The position numbers were made by a program, and so were the translations under genes. A stretch of DNA of 50,798 bases, taken from contig JAFEEB010000014.1 of NCBI GenBank assembly GCA_018241325.1, positions 21,959-72,756 of the forward strand. Direction: 5' to 3'. The stretch comes from Pseudomonadota bacterium. GTDB taxonomy: Bacteria; Pseudomonadota; Gammaproteobacteria; Burkholderiales; Burkholderiaceae_C. Positions 25,507-32,844 of this stretch are shown piece by piece. Positions within the stretch are counted from its first letter, which is position 1, and the number at the start of each line of letters is the position of its first letter. The notes beneath the pieces are model-generated. The model had not been told where the DNA came from and did not search any database. It saw only the letters and a program-made list of their open reading frames with translations.

Positions 25507-25710
25507 TCAATGCGGCGGGTGCGCGGGAGGCTCGTCCGGATCGTCCTGCACGGCGACGCGAAAGCGCTCGTTGGCCCAGTCGCCCAGATCGTGCAGCTTG
25601 CAGCGCTGGCTGCAAAACGGCCGCCAGGGGTTGTCCGGCGCATAGCGGCTGGGGCCGCCGCAGGCGGGGCAGCGCACGGTGGGAGCCGGGGAGGGCGTGC
25701 GGCTGTTCAC
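25507..25710 (-). CDS. yacG: YacG, DNA gyrase inhibitor / zinc-binding protein
   Basis: A 67-residue zinc protein. The four cysteines are in CPACGG and FCSQRC, followed by KLHDLGDWANERFRV, the family signature; the tail is acidic and proline-rich. YacG of Escherichia coli binds GyrB. The start is taken as GTG 25710 (MNSRTPSPAPTVRCP). This GTG lies in the border motif CCAGTGAAC of a 63-bp repeat array, with AGGGT 10 bases upstream as ribosome site. The frame stays open through the whole array to 25902, so a longer product of 131 residues with repeat-derived N-terminus is possible. Last gene of the pilB-to-yacG block. Confidence 0.88.
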   Translation of the reverse strand: MNSRTPSPAPTVRCPACGGPSRYAPDNPWRPFCSQRCKLHDLGDWANERFRVAVQDDPDEPPAHPPH

Positions 25711-25897
25711 TGGACGACCCTGCACGCTGCGCGCTGCGGGATTCGCGCTTGGGAGCGGCCCGGCGCGCAGATTGCACCAACCCTGCGCGCTGCGCGCTGC
25801 GGGATTCGCGCTTGGGGGCGGCCCGGCGCGCAAATCGGACAAACCCTGCGCGCTGTGCGCTGCGGGATTCGCGCTTGGGAGCGGCCCGGCGCGCTCA
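25703..25897 (-). repeat. Tandem 63-bp repeat array 1 (3 units) between zapD and yacG
   Basis: Units on the plus strand start at 25722, 25785 and 25848 with a 63-bp period; the last is truncated at the border. The core GGGATTCGCGCTTGGGAGCG then GCCCGGCGCG is nearly invariant (unit 2 has GGGGGCG); the AGATTGCACC / AAATCGGAC part varies. The array begins at the zapD stop (border CGCTCA, 25892-25897) and ends at CTGTTCA (25703-25709), a distance of 3 x 63 - 1. The same core and borders recur at 31972. There are no unique spacers, so it is not a CRISPR array. Confidence 0.95.
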
Positions 25898-25898
25898 T
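25707..25898 (-). other. Repeat-encoded small ORF (63 codons), expression unknown
   Basis: ATG 25898 overlaps the zapD stop (ATGA) and the TGA stop overlaps the GTG start of yacG (GTGA). The product would be M-S followed by three copies of a 21-residue unit, APGRSQARIP...RRVCPIC, the last ending VVQ. It is arginine- and proline-rich with no known domain. The array of six units at 31976 gives an ORF with the same start, unit and end. It could be a real peptide or only the effect of a repeat whose length is a multiple of three and which lacks stops in every frame. Confidence 0.3.
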
Positions 25899-26650
25899 GC
25901 ACACAGCGCCAACTCGAAGGGCGCGTCGATGCGTTCGGACTGCAACTTGCCGTCGGGCTGCAGGCGCATCAGGCGCACGGACACGGCCAGCCGGTTGCCG
26001 CTGATTTCGGGCACCAGGCCCAGCGACTCATCCAGCCGCAGGCGCAGCAGCTGCACCGTGCGGCCTTGCGGCAGGCCCATCTGGTATTGACCGGCCGTGG
26101 CGGTCAGCATGCGCGGCTTGCCGGTGTCGCGCAGGATTTGCAGCAGCAGCGCGATGGCTTGCGCCATGGGCCCCAGCGAGGCCACCCAGCGCTGCAAGTC
26201 GGCGCGCCGGCTGGCCGCCTGGCCGTGCTGCCAGGCATGGTAGGCCGGCAGATCGAACCCGCAGGTGCCGCCCGGGATGGCGGCGCGGCTGCGGATGCCC
26301 ATCAGCCAGTCGTTGTCGGTCAGTTCGTGGCCGGGTTTGCCCAGCTGCTGGTTGAGCTGGCTGAAGGCGTCGTCCAGCCGCGCCAGGATGGCGTTCAGCG
26401 AGACCTCCGAGATGGCGGGGTTGCCGCGGTAGGCGGCCATCTGCGTTTTTTGCTTTTCCAGGTCCTTGAGCACGTCCGACTTCAGGTCGGCGCGGCTCGT
26501 CACGTCCATGATCTCGAACAGGGTGACCAGCGCAAAGTGGTGGTCCAGCGCCGCCTCGCGCGGCAGCAACTGGCCCAGTCGGCCGAACAGGTGCTCGAGC
26601 CGGAGATAGGTGCGAATGCGTTCGTTGAAAGGGTACTCGTACAGGATCAC
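25895..26650 (-). CDS. zapD: ZapD, cell-division protein that bundles FtsZ
   Basis: A 251-residue protein. GTG 26650 gives MILYEYPFNERIRTYLRLEH, the family N-terminus; length fits the 247 of Escherichia coli. The N-terminal alpha domain includes EHLFGRLGQLL and FFALVTLFEIMD-like text (HHFALVTLFEIMD), the C-terminal beta domain QMGLPQGRTVQLLRLRLDES. ZapD cross-links FtsZ protofilaments at the Z-ring. It lies 25 bp after coaE in the block pilB-pilC-pilD-coaE-zapD-yacG. Its TGA stop is fused to the border of the repeat array. Confidence 0.93.
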   Translation of the reverse strand: MILYEYPFNERIRTYLRLEHLFGRLGQLLPREAALDHHFALVTLFEIMDVTSRADLKSDVLKDLEKQKTQMAAYRGNPAISEVSLNAILARLDDAFSQLNQQLGKPGHELTDNDWLMGIRSRAAIPGGTCGFDLPAYHAWQHGQAASRRADLQRWVASLGPMAQAIALLLQILRDTGKPRMLTATAGQYQMGLPQGRTVQLLRLRLDESLGLVPEISGNRLAVSVRLMRLQPDGKLQSERIDAPFELALCA

Positions 26651-26675
26651 GCGCGGGCTTCCAGGCTGGGGCGCA

Positions 26676-27299
26676 TCATAGCCCCAAGCGCCGCGCCAGG
26701 ATGTCGAGTTGGACGCCCAGATCACGCACCGACACATCTTCGCCGTTGAACAGCACCCAGTCGGCGGCCGCCAGCCGCTGGCTGCGCGAAGCCTGCGCCG
26801 CCAGGATGGATTCGATCTCGCCACGCGCCAGGCCACTGCGGGCCATCACGCGTGCCATCTGCACCTCGGGCGGACAGTCGAGCACCAGCACGCGATCGAG
26901 CCGGGCGCGCCAGCGCGAGCCGCCCTCCACCAGCAGGGGAATGTCGTACACCAGCCACGCATGGCCCGCCTGGTGCGCTGCGCGGGTCTGGCGCTCGATT
27001 TCCTGGCCGACCAGCGGATGGATGATGGCCTCGAGTCGTTGGCGCGCGCCCGGGTTGCCATACACCTGCGCGCGCATGGCGGCGCGGTCCAGCGCACCGT
27101 CGGTGCCGATCAATCGGGGGCCGAAGGCGGCGGCGATGGCCGGCAACGCAGCGCCACCGGCGGCCGTGGTGGCGCGCGAGATGGCGTCGGCGTCGATGAT
27201 GGCGGCGCCATGCGTGGCCAGCAGGCCGGCCACCGTGCTCTTGCCGCTGCCGATGCCGCCGGTCAGGCCCAAGTGCAGGGGCGGGTTGCGGCGGGCCAT
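26676..27299 (-). CDS. coaE: CoaE, dephospho-CoA kinase
   Basis: A 207-residue P-loop kinase of the last coenzyme A step (dephospho-CoA + ATP to CoA). The P-loop is LTGGIGSGKST near residues 12-22, followed by the lid and substrate parts IIDADAISR, IHPLVGQEI and DIPLLVEGG. Start ATG 27299 lies 3 bp after the pilD stop, indicating co-transcription with the pilus assembly genes. Confidence 0.96.
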   Translation of the reverse strand: MARRNPPLHLGLTGGIGSGKSTVAGLLATHGAAIIDADAISRATTAAGGAALPAIAAAFGPRLIGTDGALDRAAMRAQVYGNPGARQRLEAIIHPLVGQEIERQTRAAHQAGHAWLVYDIPLLVEGGSRWRARLDRVLVLDCPPEVQMARVMARSGLARGEIESILAAQASRSQRLAAADWVLFNGEDVSVRDLGVQLDILARRLGL

Positions 27300-27302
27300 G
27301 GC

Positions 27303-28145
27303 CTACAAGCCGATCACCCGCAGGATGGCGGCCGGTCCGAACACCATGGCAGTGAGCCCGGCCAGGGCCAAGAACGGCCCGAAGGGCATTACCCCGCCCT
27401 CACGCAGCGCGTGCGAGAGCTTCATGCCGATGCCGATCAGCGCGCCGATCACCGACGCCATCAGGATGATGGGCGCCAGCGCCGGCCAGCCAAACCATGC
27501 GCCCAGCGCCGCAAACAGCTTGAAGTCGCCATAGCCCATGCCTTCCTTGCCGGTGACGAGCTTGAAGGCCCAGTACACCCCCCACAGCGAGACGTAGCCG
27601 GCCACCGCGCCCCAGACGGCGTGCGCCAGCGGCACGCCGGTCCAGCCCAGCGCGGCGGCGATCAGCCCGGCCCACAGCAGGGGCAGGGTCAGGTCGTCGG
27701 GCAGCAAGGTGGTGTCCCAGTCGATCAGGGTCAGCGCCACCAACAGCGCAGAGAACCCGCACCATGCAGCGGCCGCCGGGGACCAGCCCCAGCGCCAGGC
27801 GCACCACGCAAAGAGCAGGCCCGTGGCCAGCTCGACCAATGGATAGCGGGCGCTGATGCGGGCCTGGCATTGCGAGCAGCGCCCGCGCAGCAGCAACCAG
27901 CTGAGCACCGGAACGTTCTCGAACCAGCGGATGCCGTGGCCGCAGTGCGGGCAGCGCGAGCGCGGCGTGAGCAGGTTGAAGGGCGCTTGCTCGGGGACGG
28001 GCTGGCCCGTCAGCTCGGCGCATTGCTCGGCCCATTGGCGCTCCATCATCTTGGGCAGCCGGTGGATGACCACGTTCAGGAAGCTGCCGATGAGCAGGCC
28101 CAACACGCCACCGGCGGCGGCCTGCAACCACAGGGGTTCGATCAT
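27303..28145 (-). CDS. pilD: PilD, type IV prepilin peptidase and N-methylase
   Basis: A 280-residue polytopic enzyme that cuts the leader of prepilins and methylates the new N-terminus. The cytoplasmic tetracysteine motif is CPHCGHGI...CSQCQ. The aspartic protease pair is in IDWDTTLLPDD and in the GYGD of GKEGMGYGDFKLFAALG. About eight membrane segments. ATG 28145 shares one base with the pilC stop (TGATG). Confidence 0.96.
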   Translation of the reverse strand: MIEPLWLQAAAGGVLGLLIGSFLNVVIHRLPKMMERQWAEQCAELTGQPVPEQAPFNLLTPRSRCPHCGHGIRWFENVPVLSWLLLRGRCSQCQARISARYPLVELATGLLFAWCAWRWGWSPAAAAWCGFSALLVALTLIDWDTTLLPDDLTLPLLWAGLIAAALGWTGVPLAHAVWGAVAGYVSLWGVYWAFKLVTGKEGMGYGDFKLFAALGAWFGWPALAPIILMASVIGALIGIGMKLSHALREGGVMPFGPFLALAGLTAMVFGPAAILRVIGL

Positions 28146-29380
28146 CAGACGACCTGGCCCAGCTTGAAGATCGGCAGATACATGGACACCACGATGCCGC
28201 CGATGATGGTGCCGAGCACCACGATGATGATGGGCTCCATCAGGCTGGACAGGCCGGCCACCATCTCGTCCACCTCGGCCTCGTAGAAGTCGGCGGCCTT
28301 GCCCAGCATGTGGTCGAGCGAGCCGGATTCCTCGCCGATCGCGCTCATCTGCAACACCATGCTGGGAAAGATGTTGACGTTGGTCATGGCGGTGGTCAGG
28401 CTGGTGCCGGTGGACACCTCCTGCTGGATCTTGTCGGTGGCCAGCTTGTAGACCGAGTTGCCCGAGGCGCCGCCCACCGAGTCGAGTGCCTCGACCAGGG
28501 GCACGCCGGCGGCGAACATGGTGGACAGCGTGCGCGTCCAGCGCGCGATGACGGACTTTTCGATCAATTCGCCGAAGATCGGCAGCTTGAGCAGCAGGCG
28601 GTCCATGAACATCTGCATCTTTTCGTTGCGCTTCCAGGCCTGCATGAAAAAGTAGAACCCGAAGCCGATGCCGCCGAAGATCAGCCACCACCACTGCACG
28701 AAGAACTCGCTGATGGCAATCACCAGCAGCGTGGGGGCGGGCAGGTCGGCGCCGAACGAGGTGAACACTTCCTTGAAGGCCGGAATCACGAAGATCATGA
28801 TGACCGAGACCACCACGAAGGCCACCACCATGACGGCGATCGGGTACATCAGCGCCGACTTGATCTTGGACTTGATCGCCTCGGTCTTCTCCATGTAGGT
28901 GGCCAAGCGGTCGAGCAGGCTGTCCAGGATACCGGCGGCCTCGCCGGCTTCGACCAGGTTGCAGTACAGGCTGTTGAAGTAGATCGGGTATTTGCGAAAC
29001 GCCGCCGACAGCGAGGTGCCGGTTTCGACGTCCGTGCGGATGTCGTTGAGCAGCTTGGTCACGCTGGGGTTGGGGTTGCCGCGCCCAACGATGTCGAAGG
29101 CCTGCAGCAGCGGCACGCCGGCTTTCATCATGGTGGCCAGCTGGCGCGTGAAGATGGCGATGTCCCGGGGCTTGATCTTCTTGCCCGAGCGCATGCGGCG
29201 CTTTTTCAGCTTGGTGACGATGACGCCCTGGCGGCGCAGCGTGGCGTGGACCTGATTTTCGCCGCCGGCGCGCGTCTCGCCGCGCACCACCTTGCCGTTG
29301 CGATCCTTGCCCTCCCATTCGTAGACGGATTCCTTGACGCCGCTGCGCGGCGTCGATCGGGTTGCGGTTTGGGTTGCCAT
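28145..29380 (-). CDS. pilC: PilC, type IV pilus inner-membrane platform protein
   Basis: A 411-residue protein with two tandem GspF-type domains (about 75-200 and 280-405), each ending in membrane helices; features are FTRQLATMMKAGVPLLQAFD and the second-copy WTRTLSTMFAAGVPLVEALD. It couples the PilB ATPase to pilin polymerisation. The N-terminus is basic and soluble. 24 bp separate it from pilB. Confidence 0.96.
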   Translation of the reverse strand: MATQTATRSTPRSGVKESVYEWEGKDRNGKVVRGETRAGGENQVHATLRRQGVIVTKLKKRRMRSGKKIKPRDIAIFTRQLATMMKAGVPLLQAFDIVGRGNPNPSVTKLLNDIRTDVETGTSLSAAFRKYPIYFNSLYCNLVEAGEAAGILDSLLDRLATYMEKTEAIKSKIKSALMYPIAVMVVAFVVVSVIMIFVIPAFKEVFTSFGADLPAPTLLVIAISEFFVQWWWLIFGGIGFGFYFFMQAWKRNEKMQMFMDRLLLKLPIFGELIEKSVIARWTRTLSTMFAAGVPLVEALDSVGGASGNSVYKLATDKIQQEVSTGTSLTTAMTNVNIFPSMVLQMSAIGEESGSLDHMLGKAADFYEAEVDEMVAGLSSLMEPIIIVVLGTIIGGIVVSMYLPIFKLGQVV

Positions 29381-29404
29381 GACGTGGATTTCGGTTGGAG
29401 CGGC

Positions 29405-31144
29405 TTACTGATTGGTGCAGGCCAGGACTTCTTCGAGCGAGGTGACCCCCAGCCGCACCTTGTGCAGACCGGATTGGCGCAGCGAGCGCACCCCCTCGGT
29501 GCGCGCCTGCTCGGCGATTTCAAGGGCGCTGCCATCGGCCAGGATGATGCGCTGCAGCTCTTCGGTGATCGGCATCACCTCGTAGATGCCCACGCGCCCC
29601 TTGTAGCCGTTGTTGCAGGCGTCGCAGCCCACCGGCCGATAGGGCGTCCAGCTGCCGTCGATCTCGGTTTCGGGAAAGCCGGCATCGAGCAGGTTTTCGT
29701 GCGGGATGTCGGCGGGCTGCTTGCATTTGGCGCACAGGCGGCGCGCCAGGCGCTGCGCGGTGATCAGGATCACGCTGGAGGCGATGTTGAAGGGCGCGAT
29801 GCCCATGTTGCGCATGCGCGTGAGCGTGGTGGGCGCGTCGTTGGTGTGCAAGGTGGAGAGCACCAGGTGACCGGTCTGCGCGGCCTTGATGGCGATGTCG
29901 GCGGTTTCCAGGTCGCGGATTTCGCCCACCATGATGATGTCCGGGTCCTGGCGCAGGAAAGCGCGCAGGGCGACGGCGAAAGTGAGTCCGGCCTTCTCGT
30001 TGACGTTGACCTGGTTGACCCCGGGCAGGTTGATTTCGGACGGGTCTTCGGCGGTGGCGATGTTCACGCCCGGCTTGTTCAGCAGGTTCAGGCAGGTGTA
30101 GAGCGACACCGTCTTGCCCGAGCCGGTGGGGCCGGTGACGAGGATCATGCCGTACGGGCGCTCGATGGCGGTCAGCAGGCGCGCCTTTTCCTCGGGCTCG
30201 TAGCCCAGCGCCTCGATGCCCATGCGGGCGCTGCTGGGGTCCAGGATGCGGATGACGATTTTTTCGCCGAACAGCGTGGGCAGGGTGCTGACGCGAAAGT
30301 CGATCACGCGCTCGGGCCCCACCTTGAGCTTCATGCGGCCGTCTTGCGGAATGCGCTTCTCGGCAATGTCCAGGCGCGAGATCACCTTGATGCGCGAGGC
30401 CAGCTTTTCCTTGATGGCCACCGGCGGCGAGACGATTTCCTGCAGTTCGCCGTCGATGCGAAAGCGCACGCGGTACTGGTGCTCGTAGGGCTCGAAGTGC
30501 AGGTCCGAGGCGCCCAGGCCGATGGCGTCCAGGAGCACCTTGTGCAGGAACTTGACCACCGGGGCGTCTTCGACGTCCGAGGGGGCGTCCTCGGTGGTGT
30601 CGGGCGGCGCGTCCGAGACCAGGGAGCCCTCGTCGAAATCGAAGCCGGTGCCGATGATGCTGTCCATCGAGTCGGCGACGGATTTGCCGTGCTTTTCGAC
30701 CAGGCGAACGAGCTTGTCGAACTCGCCAATGACCCACTCGACCCCCATCTGGGTGATGAACTTGATGCGTTCGGCGGCCTCGTGGTCGGACGGGTCGGCG
30801 GTGACGACCACCAGGCGCCCGCCGCGCTTGCTGAGTGCCAGCAACCGATACTTCAGGGCCAGCTTGACGTCCAGCAAGTCCTTGGGCAGGCGCGCCGGAT
30901 CGAGCGCATCCACATCGATCAGGGGTGCCGAAAAGGCCTGCGCCAGCGTGTGGGCCAGATCGGACGCCGAGATCGCGCCCGACTGGATCAGTTCGGGGAT
31001 GTACGCCTCGCCGGTGGCCAGCGCCTTGCGGTGCACCTCCTCGGCCGCCTTCTGGCTGACCTTGCCGGCAATGACCAAGGCCCGACCGACGCCGGGCAGG
31101 GCGCTGGACAGGGGCTCTCGGAGGGACGATTCGGATACGGCCAT
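29405..31144 (-). CDS. pilB: PilB, type IV pilus extension ATPase
   Basis: A 579-residue hexameric ATPase. The N-terminal MshEN-like domain covers about 1-150. The ATPase core has the Asp box RFRIDGELQE, Walker A GPTGSGKT, Walker B QDPDIIMVGEIRD, the His box STLHTND, and a zinc site formed by CAKC and CDAC. It powers pilus extension. A cognate retraction ATPase (PilT) is not in the window. The 161-bp spacer to alkB contains no clear promoter that I would name. Confidence 0.97.
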   Translation of the reverse strand: MAVSESSLREPLSSALPGVGRALVIAGKVSQKAAEEVHRKALATGEAYIPELIQSGAISASDLAHTLAQAFSAPLIDVDALDPARLPKDLLDVKLALKYRLLALSKRGGRLVVVTADPSDHEAAERIKFITQMGVEWVIGEFDKLVRLVEKHGKSVADSMDSIIGTGFDFDEGSLVSDAPPDTTEDAPSDVEDAPVVKFLHKVLLDAIGLGASDLHFEPYEHQYRVRFRIDGELQEIVSPPVAIKEKLASRIKVISRLDIAEKRIPQDGRMKLKVGPERVIDFRVSTLPTLFGEKIVIRILDPSSARMGIEALGYEPEEKARLLTAIERPYGMILVTGPTGSGKTVSLYTCLNLLNKPGVNIATAEDPSEINLPGVNQVNVNEKAGLTFAVALRAFLRQDPDIIMVGEIRDLETADIAIKAAQTGHLVLSTLHTNDAPTTLTRMRNMGIAPFNIASSVILITAQRLARRLCAKCKQPADIPHENLLDAGFPETEIDGSWTPYRPVGCDACNNGYKGRVGIYEVMPITEELQRIILADGSALEIAEQARTEGVRSLRQSGLHKVRLGVTSLEEVLACTNQ

Positions 31145-31305
31145 TGAAGAAATGCGTAGACAACGGAAATCTTAACGATCATCGCCCATACGTGAGCATC
31201 TGTAAACGATCGAATGCCCGCATTGTGTGCCGCAGTCAACAAAATCGGCCCTGGCCGAGCGCGAAAGTGGCCCGATGTTGTTGCAAGGCGCCAAATGGGC
31301 GTGGC

Positions 31306-31965
31306 CTAACCCGCCTTGCGGAAGGTCAGGTTGATGCGCCGATCCCCCGTCATGGGGTGCCGCCCCGCCCCGATGGGGGCCACGCCGTGAAAACGCAGGC
31401 GATCGCGCCCGCCCCACACGACGACGTCGCCATGAAACAGCGGCACGCGCAGGCAGCGGTCCGCGCGGCGCGCGCCGCCCCACAGGAACACGGCGGGCAA
31501 ACCCAGCGACACCGAGACGATGGGCCAGCCGAAGTCGCGCTCGTTGCGATCCTGGTGCAGGGACAGGCGCGTTGCGGGCGCGTAGCGGTTGATCAGGCAG
31601 GCGTCGGGCGCAAAGCCGTCGAAGCCGGCGGCTTGGGCGGCGTCACGCGCCAACCGGCCGAAAGCGGGCGGCATGGCGGGCCAGGGCTGCGCGCTGTCCG
31701 GGTCGTCCGGGCGGTAGCGATAGCCGGCGCGGCTGCTGGTCCAGCCCAGCGCGCCGCAGTTGGTCAGCGGCACCGACATGCTCTGGCCTCCTGGCGTGAG
31801 CATATGGCGAAACGGCGCTTGTGCCACCACGGCTTGCAGCGCGCTCCACAGCGCCGGCGCCTGCGGCAGGGCCCAGCCGCGCAGCACCACGGCCTGCGGC
31901 CCCAGCGGGGTGCGCGTGCCCGTCAGCGGCGCCTGGTCGGCAAACAGATCGCTCGTGTCGGACAT
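31306..31965 (-). CDS. alkB: AlkB-like 2-oxoglutarate/Fe(II) dioxygenase
   Basis: A 219-residue enzyme that oxidatively removes methyl groups from 1-methyladenine and 3-methylcytosine. Iron ligands are in LHQDRNE (H, D) and the distal FHGVAP (H); the 2-oxoglutarate-binding arginines are in RRINLTFR. Substrate region NRYAPATRLSLH is typical of the DNA-repair AlkB group. The start is ATG 31965 (MSDTSDLFADQ). The frame stays open into the repeat array to 32163, but that extension is repeat-derived. The ribosome site for 31965 is weak. Confidence 0.93.
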   Translation of the reverse strand: MSDTSDLFADQAPLTGTRTPLGPQAVVLRGWALPQAPALWSALQAVVAQAPFRHMLTPGGQSMSVPLTNCGALGWTSSRAGYRYRPDDPDSAQPWPAMPPAFGRLARDAAQAAGFDGFAPDACLINRYAPATRLSLHQDRNERDFGWPIVSVSLGLPAVFLWGGARRADRCLRVPLFHGDVVVWGGRDRLRFHGVAPIGAGRHPMTGDRRINLTFRKAG

Positions 31966-31971
31966 GCTCGG

Positions 31972-32355
31972 GCGTTCACTGGGCGACCCTGCGCGCTGCG
32001 CGCTGCGGGATTCGCGCTTGGGAGCGGCCCGGCGCGCAGATCGGACAAACCCTGCGCGCTGCGCGCTTCGGGATTCGCGCTTGGGAGCGGCCCGGCGCGC
32101 AAACCCGACGTCCCCTCCGCGCTGCGCGCTTCGGGATTCGCGCTTGGGAGCGGCCCGGCGCACAAATCGGACAAACCCTCCGCGCTGCGCGCTGCGGGAT
32201 TCGCGCTTGGGAGCGGCCCGGCGCGCAGATCGGACAAACCCTCTGCGCTGCGCGCTTCGGGATTCGCGCTTGGGAGCGGCCCGGCGCGCAGATCGGACAA
32301 ACCCTCCGCGCTGCGCGCTTCGGGATTCGCGCTTGGGAGCGGCCCGGCGCGTTCA
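31972..32355 (-). repeat. Tandem 63-bp repeat array 2 (6 units) between yqaA-like gene and alkB
   Basis: Plus-strand units begin at 31991, 32054, 32117, 32180, 32243 and 32306, exactly 63 bp apart. The core GGGATTCGCGCTTGGGAGCG then GCCCGGCGC is identical in all six. The short linker varies (GATCGGACAAACCCT in most, AACCCGACGTCCCCT in unit 2). Border motif GCGTTCA occurs at 31972-31978 and 32349-32355, 377 bp apart (6 x 63 - 1), so each unit seems to be bounded by TGAACGC on the minus strand. The array starts at the upstream gene's stop codon, as in array 1. Confidence 0.96.
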
Positions 32356-32356
32356 T
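31976..32356 (-). other. Repeat-encoded ORF (126 codons), expression unknown
   Basis: ATG 32356 overlaps the stop of the yqaA-like gene (ATGA). The product would be M-N, then six copies of a 21-residue unit APGRSQARIP...RRVCPIC, ending RRVAQ and a TGA in the border CAGTGAAC, ten bases before the alkB ATG. One unit reads RRGRRVC because of the variant linker. The CPIC element could bind metal or form disulfides, but no family is recognised. All six frames are open across the array, which weakens the case that this frame is the coding one. Confidence 0.3.
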
Positions 32357-32844
32357 GGCGGCGCCAGGCTCACTGGTTGCGGCCACAGATAGAGCAGGCC
32401 GCCGGTCATGACCAGGTAGCGTGCGAATTTTCCGGCCAGCATCCAGCCGGCGCAGGGGGCCAGGGGCAGGCGCAGCCAGCCGGCGACGGCGCACAGGGGG
32501 TCGCCCACCACGGGCAAGAAGGAGAAAAAGCAGGCCCGCGGCCCCAGGCGGCGCAGCCAGTCCAGCGCGCGCAGGTGGGTGGGCGAGTGGCGATAGCGAT
32601 CCAGCACCTGGTGCGCGCCCCAGCCCATCCACCAGGTCAGCACGCCGCCCAGCATGTTGCCCAGCGTGGCCACGCCGATGGCGGGCCAGAACAGCGACGG
32701 GCTCAGCTTGACCAGGCCGAACACCGCCGGCTCCGAGCCCAACGGCAGCAGGGTGGCCGAGACGAAGGCCACCACGAACACGGTGGACAAGCCGTATTCG
32801 GGCAGCGCCAGCGCCTGCAGCAGGGAGTTGAACCACGCTTCCAT
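32353..32844 (-). CDS. DedA/SNARE-associated-type membrane protein, YqaA-like
   Basis: A 163-residue membrane protein starting MEAWFNSLLQALALPEYG. It has membrane segments near STVFVVAFVSATLLPLGSEP, ATLGNMLGGVLTWWMGW and PRACFFSFLPVVGDPLCAVA, with the conserved F-P-V-G-D-P turn and KFARYLVMTGG at the end. This matches the short YqaA branch of the DedA superfamily, members of which are thought to move lipids. Its TGA stop lies in the ATGA at the border of repeat array 2. It is divergent from dusB. Confidence 0.85.
   Translation of the reverse strand: MEAWFNSLLQALALPEYGLSTVFVVAFVSATLLPLGSEPAVFGLVKLSPSLFWPAIGVATLGNMLGGVLTWWMGWGAHQVLDRYRHSPTHLRALDWLRRLGPRACFFSFLPVVGDPLCAVAGWLRLPLAPCAGWMLAGKFARYLVMTGGLLYLWPQPVSLAPP

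Follow-up and report, generated by a model that had tools for sequence, protein, structure and literature searches.

How can DNA come to lie between two genes whose stop and start codons overlap in a way that may still let ribosomes pass from one to the other? The question is raised by two tandem repeat arrays in a stretch of 50,798 nucleotides (the window) from contig JAFEEB010000014.1 of a Burkholderiales genome (assembly GCA_018241325.1), one between zapD and yacG and the other between a VTT/DedA-type gene and alkB. Both arrays are members of a dispersed family of short repeats in Burkholderiales. The reading best supported by the evidence is that the repeat is a dispersed cassette that keeps a gene-to-gene ribosome relay, to which we assign a probability of about 0.7.

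Array 1 (25707..25898, minus strand) consists of three 63-bp units and carries a read-through open reading frame (ORF; 25898-25707) of 63 codons plus stop that runs from ATGA to GTGA. This ORF opens with an ATG (25898-25896) overlapping the TGA that ends zapD (25897-25895), where the junction has its first stop, and closes with a TGA (25709-25707) overlapping the GTG of yacG (25710-25708). Array 2 (31976..32356, minus strand) has six 63-bp units and a read-through ORF (32356-31976) of 126 codons plus stop, again from ATGA to GTGA, whose ATG overlaps the stop TGA (32355-32353) of the VTT/DedA-type gene. The terminal TGA of array 2 (31978-31976) also reads GTGA; the GTG there is not in the alkB frame, and the alkB ATG (31965) follows 10 nt after the repeat-ORF TGA. 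The first-pass annotation had described arrays that open with ATGA on the upstream stop, an in-frame ORF of 21-residue units reaching a far TGA, and an overlap of that TGA with the yacG start in array 1 only, and each of these points is confirmed. Little follows from an open frame by itself, since within the GC-rich units every one of the six frames is open; other copies of the repeat were therefore examined.

The window lies on contig C5 of its own genome (G000, 93 contigs), in which 33 copies of the unit core, with at most 3 mismatches allowed, are spread over 17 arrays, all of which were read. In the GTDB collection, a single unanchored search with the core matched at least 114 stretches. 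Full units among the matches listed come from Piscinibacter, Ideonella, Inhella, Pelomonas, Rubrivivax, Aquabacterium, Pseudacidovorax and Ottowia sp. GY511, and other matches are to the core only (for example L074, L092, L095, L111, L113-L115, L126, L128 and L132). Presence is patchy: 7 of 41 genomes match the core, G000 included and two of them (G010 and G011) with the core only, a longer pattern anchored on TGA matches 4 of 399 genomes across the order, G000 again included, and a family-level survey found matches in 29 of the 200 genomes covered and in 23 of their 141 genera. Most arrays (102 of 133) consist of a single unit, and the periods of tandem units are 59-63 bp, with one of 71. The element was unmatched in plasmid, phage and viral records at the sensitivity used, and a literature search that included four 15-base strings of the element found no description of a betaproteobacterial 59-63-bp family.

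Placement was scored in 87 arrays from five genomes (G000, G423, G426, G429 and G433), of which 84 have a usable 5' flank; one further G429 copy that shares a stretch with another was not counted apart, and coding phase was judged by codon-position GC. A stop codon stands at the 5' edge of 77 of the 84 arrays (53 ATGA, 12 CTGA, 9 GTGA, 2 TTGA and 1 CTAA), and 69 of these 77 stops are in the upstream coding phase, where one third would be expected (p = 1e-24). At the other end, the 3' start matches the coding phase of the downstream gene in 64 of 80 arrays (p = 1e-17), a start codon in that phase occupies the expected 3' place in 61 of the 80 callable arrays, and 47 arrays of the five-genome set have both edges in place. 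A later set of 46 arrays, a subset of the family-level survey matches after 15 duplicates were dropped, gave a stop at the edge in 43, in phase in 40, and a start in 38. Copies lying away from stop codons would tell against the first-pass annotation; with a stop codon at the array start in 77/84 and 43/46 cases, the survey of gene ends favours its claim. The edge TGA may belong to the element by descent, and the weight is therefore carried by the phase agreement and the empty sites, not by the mere presence of TGA. Separately, the edge stop is TAA in L125/L255 (CTAAGC) and L191 (ATAAGC), a stop kept despite a differing sequence.

Most relatives that lack the element have the plain overlap at the zapD-yacG and murE-murF junctions. 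Between zapD and yacG, 19 of 22 readable same-genus loci without the element have a plain ATGA overlap, one additional locus being cut by a contig end. The murE-murF junction holds one unit in G000, and all 22 readable loci from 21 relatives without the element overlap at the same point (ATGA in 19, GTGA in 3); murE was not found in one further locus. The rpe-gph junction is filled with two units in G017 and three in G020 and is empty in G008 (ATGA) and G013 (GTGA), only two empty sites because the genes are adjacent in few relatives. At the site of array 2, 11 of 17 other loci have a recognisable upstream gene, and an ATGA overlap, located by counting positions, is present in G004 only. The empty sites place the insertion directly after the TGA, with NTGA left at the left side and RTGA at the right. 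The murE-murF unit of G000 (L021) has one extra base and its ORF fuses in frame with murF, which would add a 21-residue N-terminal extension to MurF.

The lengths of tandem units follow a frame rule. In 59- and 62-bp units the stop is overlapped by an ATG, GTG or TTG of the next unit; lacking an in-frame stop, 60- and 63-bp units are read through. The rule holds at 52 of 53 unit junctions, the exception being a 61-bp unit in L029, and at 17 of 18 junctions of the later set, the remaining one, in L479, having its stop/start overlap displaced by one base. Overall, 68 of 69 distinct junctions keep the ribosome path when one base of slack is allowed. The extra base of the 63-bp units differs in position between species, and the 63-bp form therefore arose more than once. 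Across 188 distinct units, column 37 holds C, G or A; a T there would create TAG and does not occur, although related units are not independent. Early stops occur in 2 of 145 units, each of which forms TGATG with the downstream start, and in none of 43 further units. These three indirect signs, the junction rule, column 37 and the early-stop cases, favour translation of the units as judged from sequence. At the 3' end, where 16 of 105 arrays were not callable, 53 of 61 callable single units and 23 of 28 callable multi-unit arrays end exactly on the downstream start. A by-eye look at single units with indels showed no clear frame bias. Separately, L446 and L453 (in G619 and G483) are arrays of 60-bp units with a CTCAT core variant, in which every junction is an in-frame read-through.

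A full unit is a 66-nt cassette made up of an ATG, 20 codons and a TGA, together with hairpins and a GGAGGG site that precedes the final GTG or ATG. The consensus cassette reads ATGAGCGCGCCGGGCCGYTCCCAAGCGCGAATCCCGSAG, a short stem-loop, GGAGGG, about 7 nt and then GTGA or ATGA, and the ORF from the first ATG has 21 codons plus stop. RNAalifold, applied to 21 hand-picked units, gave two hairpins, the second of which (alignment columns 33-55) includes most of the GGAGGG; by counting, it lies at window positions 25718..25740 (minus strand) in the last unit of array 1, with a GCAGGG that resembles a Shine-Dalgarno (SD) sequence in its 3' arm (25723-25718). Two of the four inner-stem pairs of hairpin 2 covary beyond permutation: pair 41-47 forms in 96% of 145 distinct units compared with 73% after permutation, and pair 40-48 in 97% compared with 89% (0 of 2000 permutations as high in either case). 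The remaining two inner pairs form in 95-96% of the units, with little or no excess over permutation, and all four form in 42 or 43 of 43 further units. The median SD duplex energy is -9.7 compared with -4.8 at 39 empty junctions and -5.2 for shuffled sequence, calculated against an anti-SD sequence.

The relay would work as follows. The repeat inserts right behind the TGA where same-strand genes overlap by stop and start, in most cases as ATGA and in some as GTGA, and leaves the upstream stop intact. Its 3' end supplies an SD sequence, a spacer and GTGA or ATGA, so that the downstream gene gains a new ribosome-binding site and a start, which the empty sites place at the old start position. 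The cassette ATG overlaps the upstream stop and the cassette TGA the downstream start. A ribosome finishing the upstream gene may re-initiate on the mini-ORF, the translation of which would open the hairpin beside the SD sequence, and the ribosome would terminate at the mini-ORF TGA and re-initiate on the downstream gene. Tandem growth would preserve this relay by a stop/start hop (mostly 59 or 62 bp) or by in-frame read-through (60 or 63 bp), and both window arrays are of the read-through form. From these features we infer that ribosomes pass from gene through repeat to gene.

Several observations weigh against the relay. Seven of the 84 arrays lack an edge stop, and 8 of the 77 stops present are out of the called upstream coding phase. 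Ten of the 21 arrays in G429 stand behind CTGA: 7 of the ten lack a start in the coding phase downstream, and the other 3 are uncallable. This sub-class needs no downstream start. Six of the 61 callable single units fuse in frame with the downstream gene, one stops 2 nt before the downstream start and one runs out of frame, and among the 28 callable multi-unit arrays 2 fuse and 3 end elsewhere, including array 2 of the window, whose end misses the alkB start. The peptide has no codon-position signal (entropies 0.341, 0.412 and 0.423), and on sequence it does not appear to be conserved, whereas the insertion site and frame are. RNAalifold applied to all 145 units gave a weak consensus from which hairpin 2 is absent, the outer CCC/GGG pairs scarcely vary, and shuffled sequence folds as well as two units taken from array 2 (z = -0.05). 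The strong SD sequence might also serve the downstream gene with no coupling at all. The claim in the first-pass annotation that coupling is kept while DNA inserts between genes thus stands in part: overlap placement, the kept upstream stop, the new start and ribosome-binding site, the joining ORF and 68 of 69 junctions speak for it, and the CTGA arrays of G429 and the single units that have lost the frame speak against it. As an observation on the G429 sub-class itself, L253-L269 are nearly uniform, with the stem GCGC-TTT-GCGC in many copies behind CTGA and no called downstream starts, a pattern that a recent burst aimed at stop codons alone might leave.

Several of these observations suit a selfish or neutral repeat with a preference for NTGA targets, in which the mini-ORF is a by-product and coupling is irrelevant. 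Copies would persist at stop/start overlaps as largely harmless insertions, with the 3' SD sequence and GTG letting the downstream gene start on its own. The CTGA sub-class that lacks called downstream starts, the unconserved peptide, the strong SD sequence and the out-of-frame single units all fit this account. Against it, frame is kept at 68 of 69 distinct junctions even though the extra base of the 63-bp units sits at various positions between species, and column 37 lacks T in 188 units; we consider it unlikely. A transcriptional or RNA-stability element (promoter, attenuator or processing hairpin), as suggested for other small repeats, is very improbable. The two covarying stem pairs agree with such a role, and parts of PMC4213456 state that the senX3-regX3 region with mycobacterial interspersed repetitive units can drive regX3, but the overlap placement and the frame rule are left unexplained, and a simple scan of both window arrays showed no promoter- or terminator-like site. 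A 21-residue repeat protein, suggested by window ORFs open for 63 and 126 codons, was rejected as barely credible, since neither ORF reaches the curated cut-off of any family, variation is even over codon positions, every unit of the 59/62-bp arrays is a separate 20-21-codon ORF and single units are common.

Returning to the relay cassette, its closest counterpart is found outside the Pseudomonadota. Mycobacterial interspersed repetitive units (MIRUs) were reportedly described by Supply et al. in 1997. By description, not by sequence, MIRUs are the closest known design, and the kind of spacer is already known. Parts of PMC12548453 present them as apparently mobile, inserting at start codons, with an inner ORF coupled to the gene at a -4 spacing and a likely minimal effect on expression, and the proposal of the first-pass annotation that these arrays are a new kind of genetic spacer therefore does not hold. 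Parts of PMC2734929 describe MIRUs as tandem, with a copy number that varies between strains, and the rnc-fpg junction as filled with repeats in the M. tuberculosis complex and 1-54 bp long in the other mycobacteria listed. The Burkholderiales family resembles MIRUs as a short dispersed repeat at stop/start junctions with an ORF that overlaps the next start by 4 nt, and its unit number varies between genomes at one locus, here at rpe-gph only (two in G017, three in G020). It differs in unit length (59-63 bp compared with 77 and 53 bp for MIRUs) and in range, its copies being in Burkholderiales, with mycobacteria covered only by the GTDB collection core search. By range the family is not MIRU, because parts of PMC4213456 restrict MIRUs to M. 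leprae and the M. tuberculosis complex. A fuller account, of a mobile translational relay cassette, about 62 bp long, that is directed to stop/start overlaps and kept in tandem only in lengths that let ribosomes pass, is put forward tentatively and at somewhat less than even odds; that estimate applies jointly to the parts that mini-ORF translation would open the RNA hairpin at the ribosome-binding site of the next gene, that the origin would be independent of mycobacterial MIRUs and that a mobiliser would recognise NTGA.

Two other repeat classes are less similar. The beta-proteobacterial repeat element (BRE) is described in parts of PMC3110155 as a GC-rich repeat of 75-91 bp in Bordetella and Comamonadaceae that also lies between convergent genes and within genes, its function being left open there. 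Both are small GC-rich tandem repeats, usually intergenic and resembling variable-number tandem repeats, but the units here are 59-63 bp (one of 71), outside the BRE length, and no start/stop rule or mini-ORF is reported for BRE, a comparison made by description only. Repetitive extragenic palindromic (REP) repeats, associated with RAYT (REP-associated tyrosine transposase) genes, can adjoin or overlap coding regions and supply the stop codon, according to parts of PMC3733652. They share short dispersed hairpins with the present family, which differs in its fixed orientation with the flanking genes, its mini-ORF and its SD sequence. Mobilisation by RAYT is unsupported, as Y1 transposase genes do not track the element: the domain PF01797 was not found in the element-bearing genomes G017, G020, G024, G429 and G432 and is present in element-poor genomes of the same genus, and no element core lies near the 15 examined of 30 Y1 loci fetched. 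A second small repeat (L397-L426, L198, L216 and L032), a CCCCCTCGGGGGGC hairpin with 84-87-bp periods, gave 34 pattern matches in G000. It has the CGGGCCGYYCCAAG box in common with the family and lies mostly off stop/start overlaps, a few copies (L216, L414 and L422) following ATGAGC, TTGAGC or GTGAGC; that this repeat is BRE, as reported by Hot et al., is our guess.

The genes that flank the window arrays are all on the minus strand. Upstream of array 1 is zapD (25895..26650; PF07072, E = 2.7e-78; NF003656, ZapD), and downstream is yacG (25507..25710; PF03884, E = 9e-22), which starts at the GTG of the GTGA. Array 2 is preceded by the VTT/DedA-type gene (32353..32844, start inferred; PF09335, E = 2.4e-8) and followed by alkB (31306..31965; NF011930, AlkB, E = 1.7e-99). 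Rfam at the gathering threshold matched only a tRNA in the window.

The many natural insertions and their matching empty sites, murE-murF among them, show how DNA can enter between overlapping genes with neither gene broken, and they extend the MIRU principle to another phylum. Given the frame rule and the hairpin, coupling could be tested directly with a simple reporter, and the arrays offer both a variable-number marker and a natural design for an operon spacer. An independent origin, if true, would make coupled spacers that target start and stop codons a general class of bacterial element.

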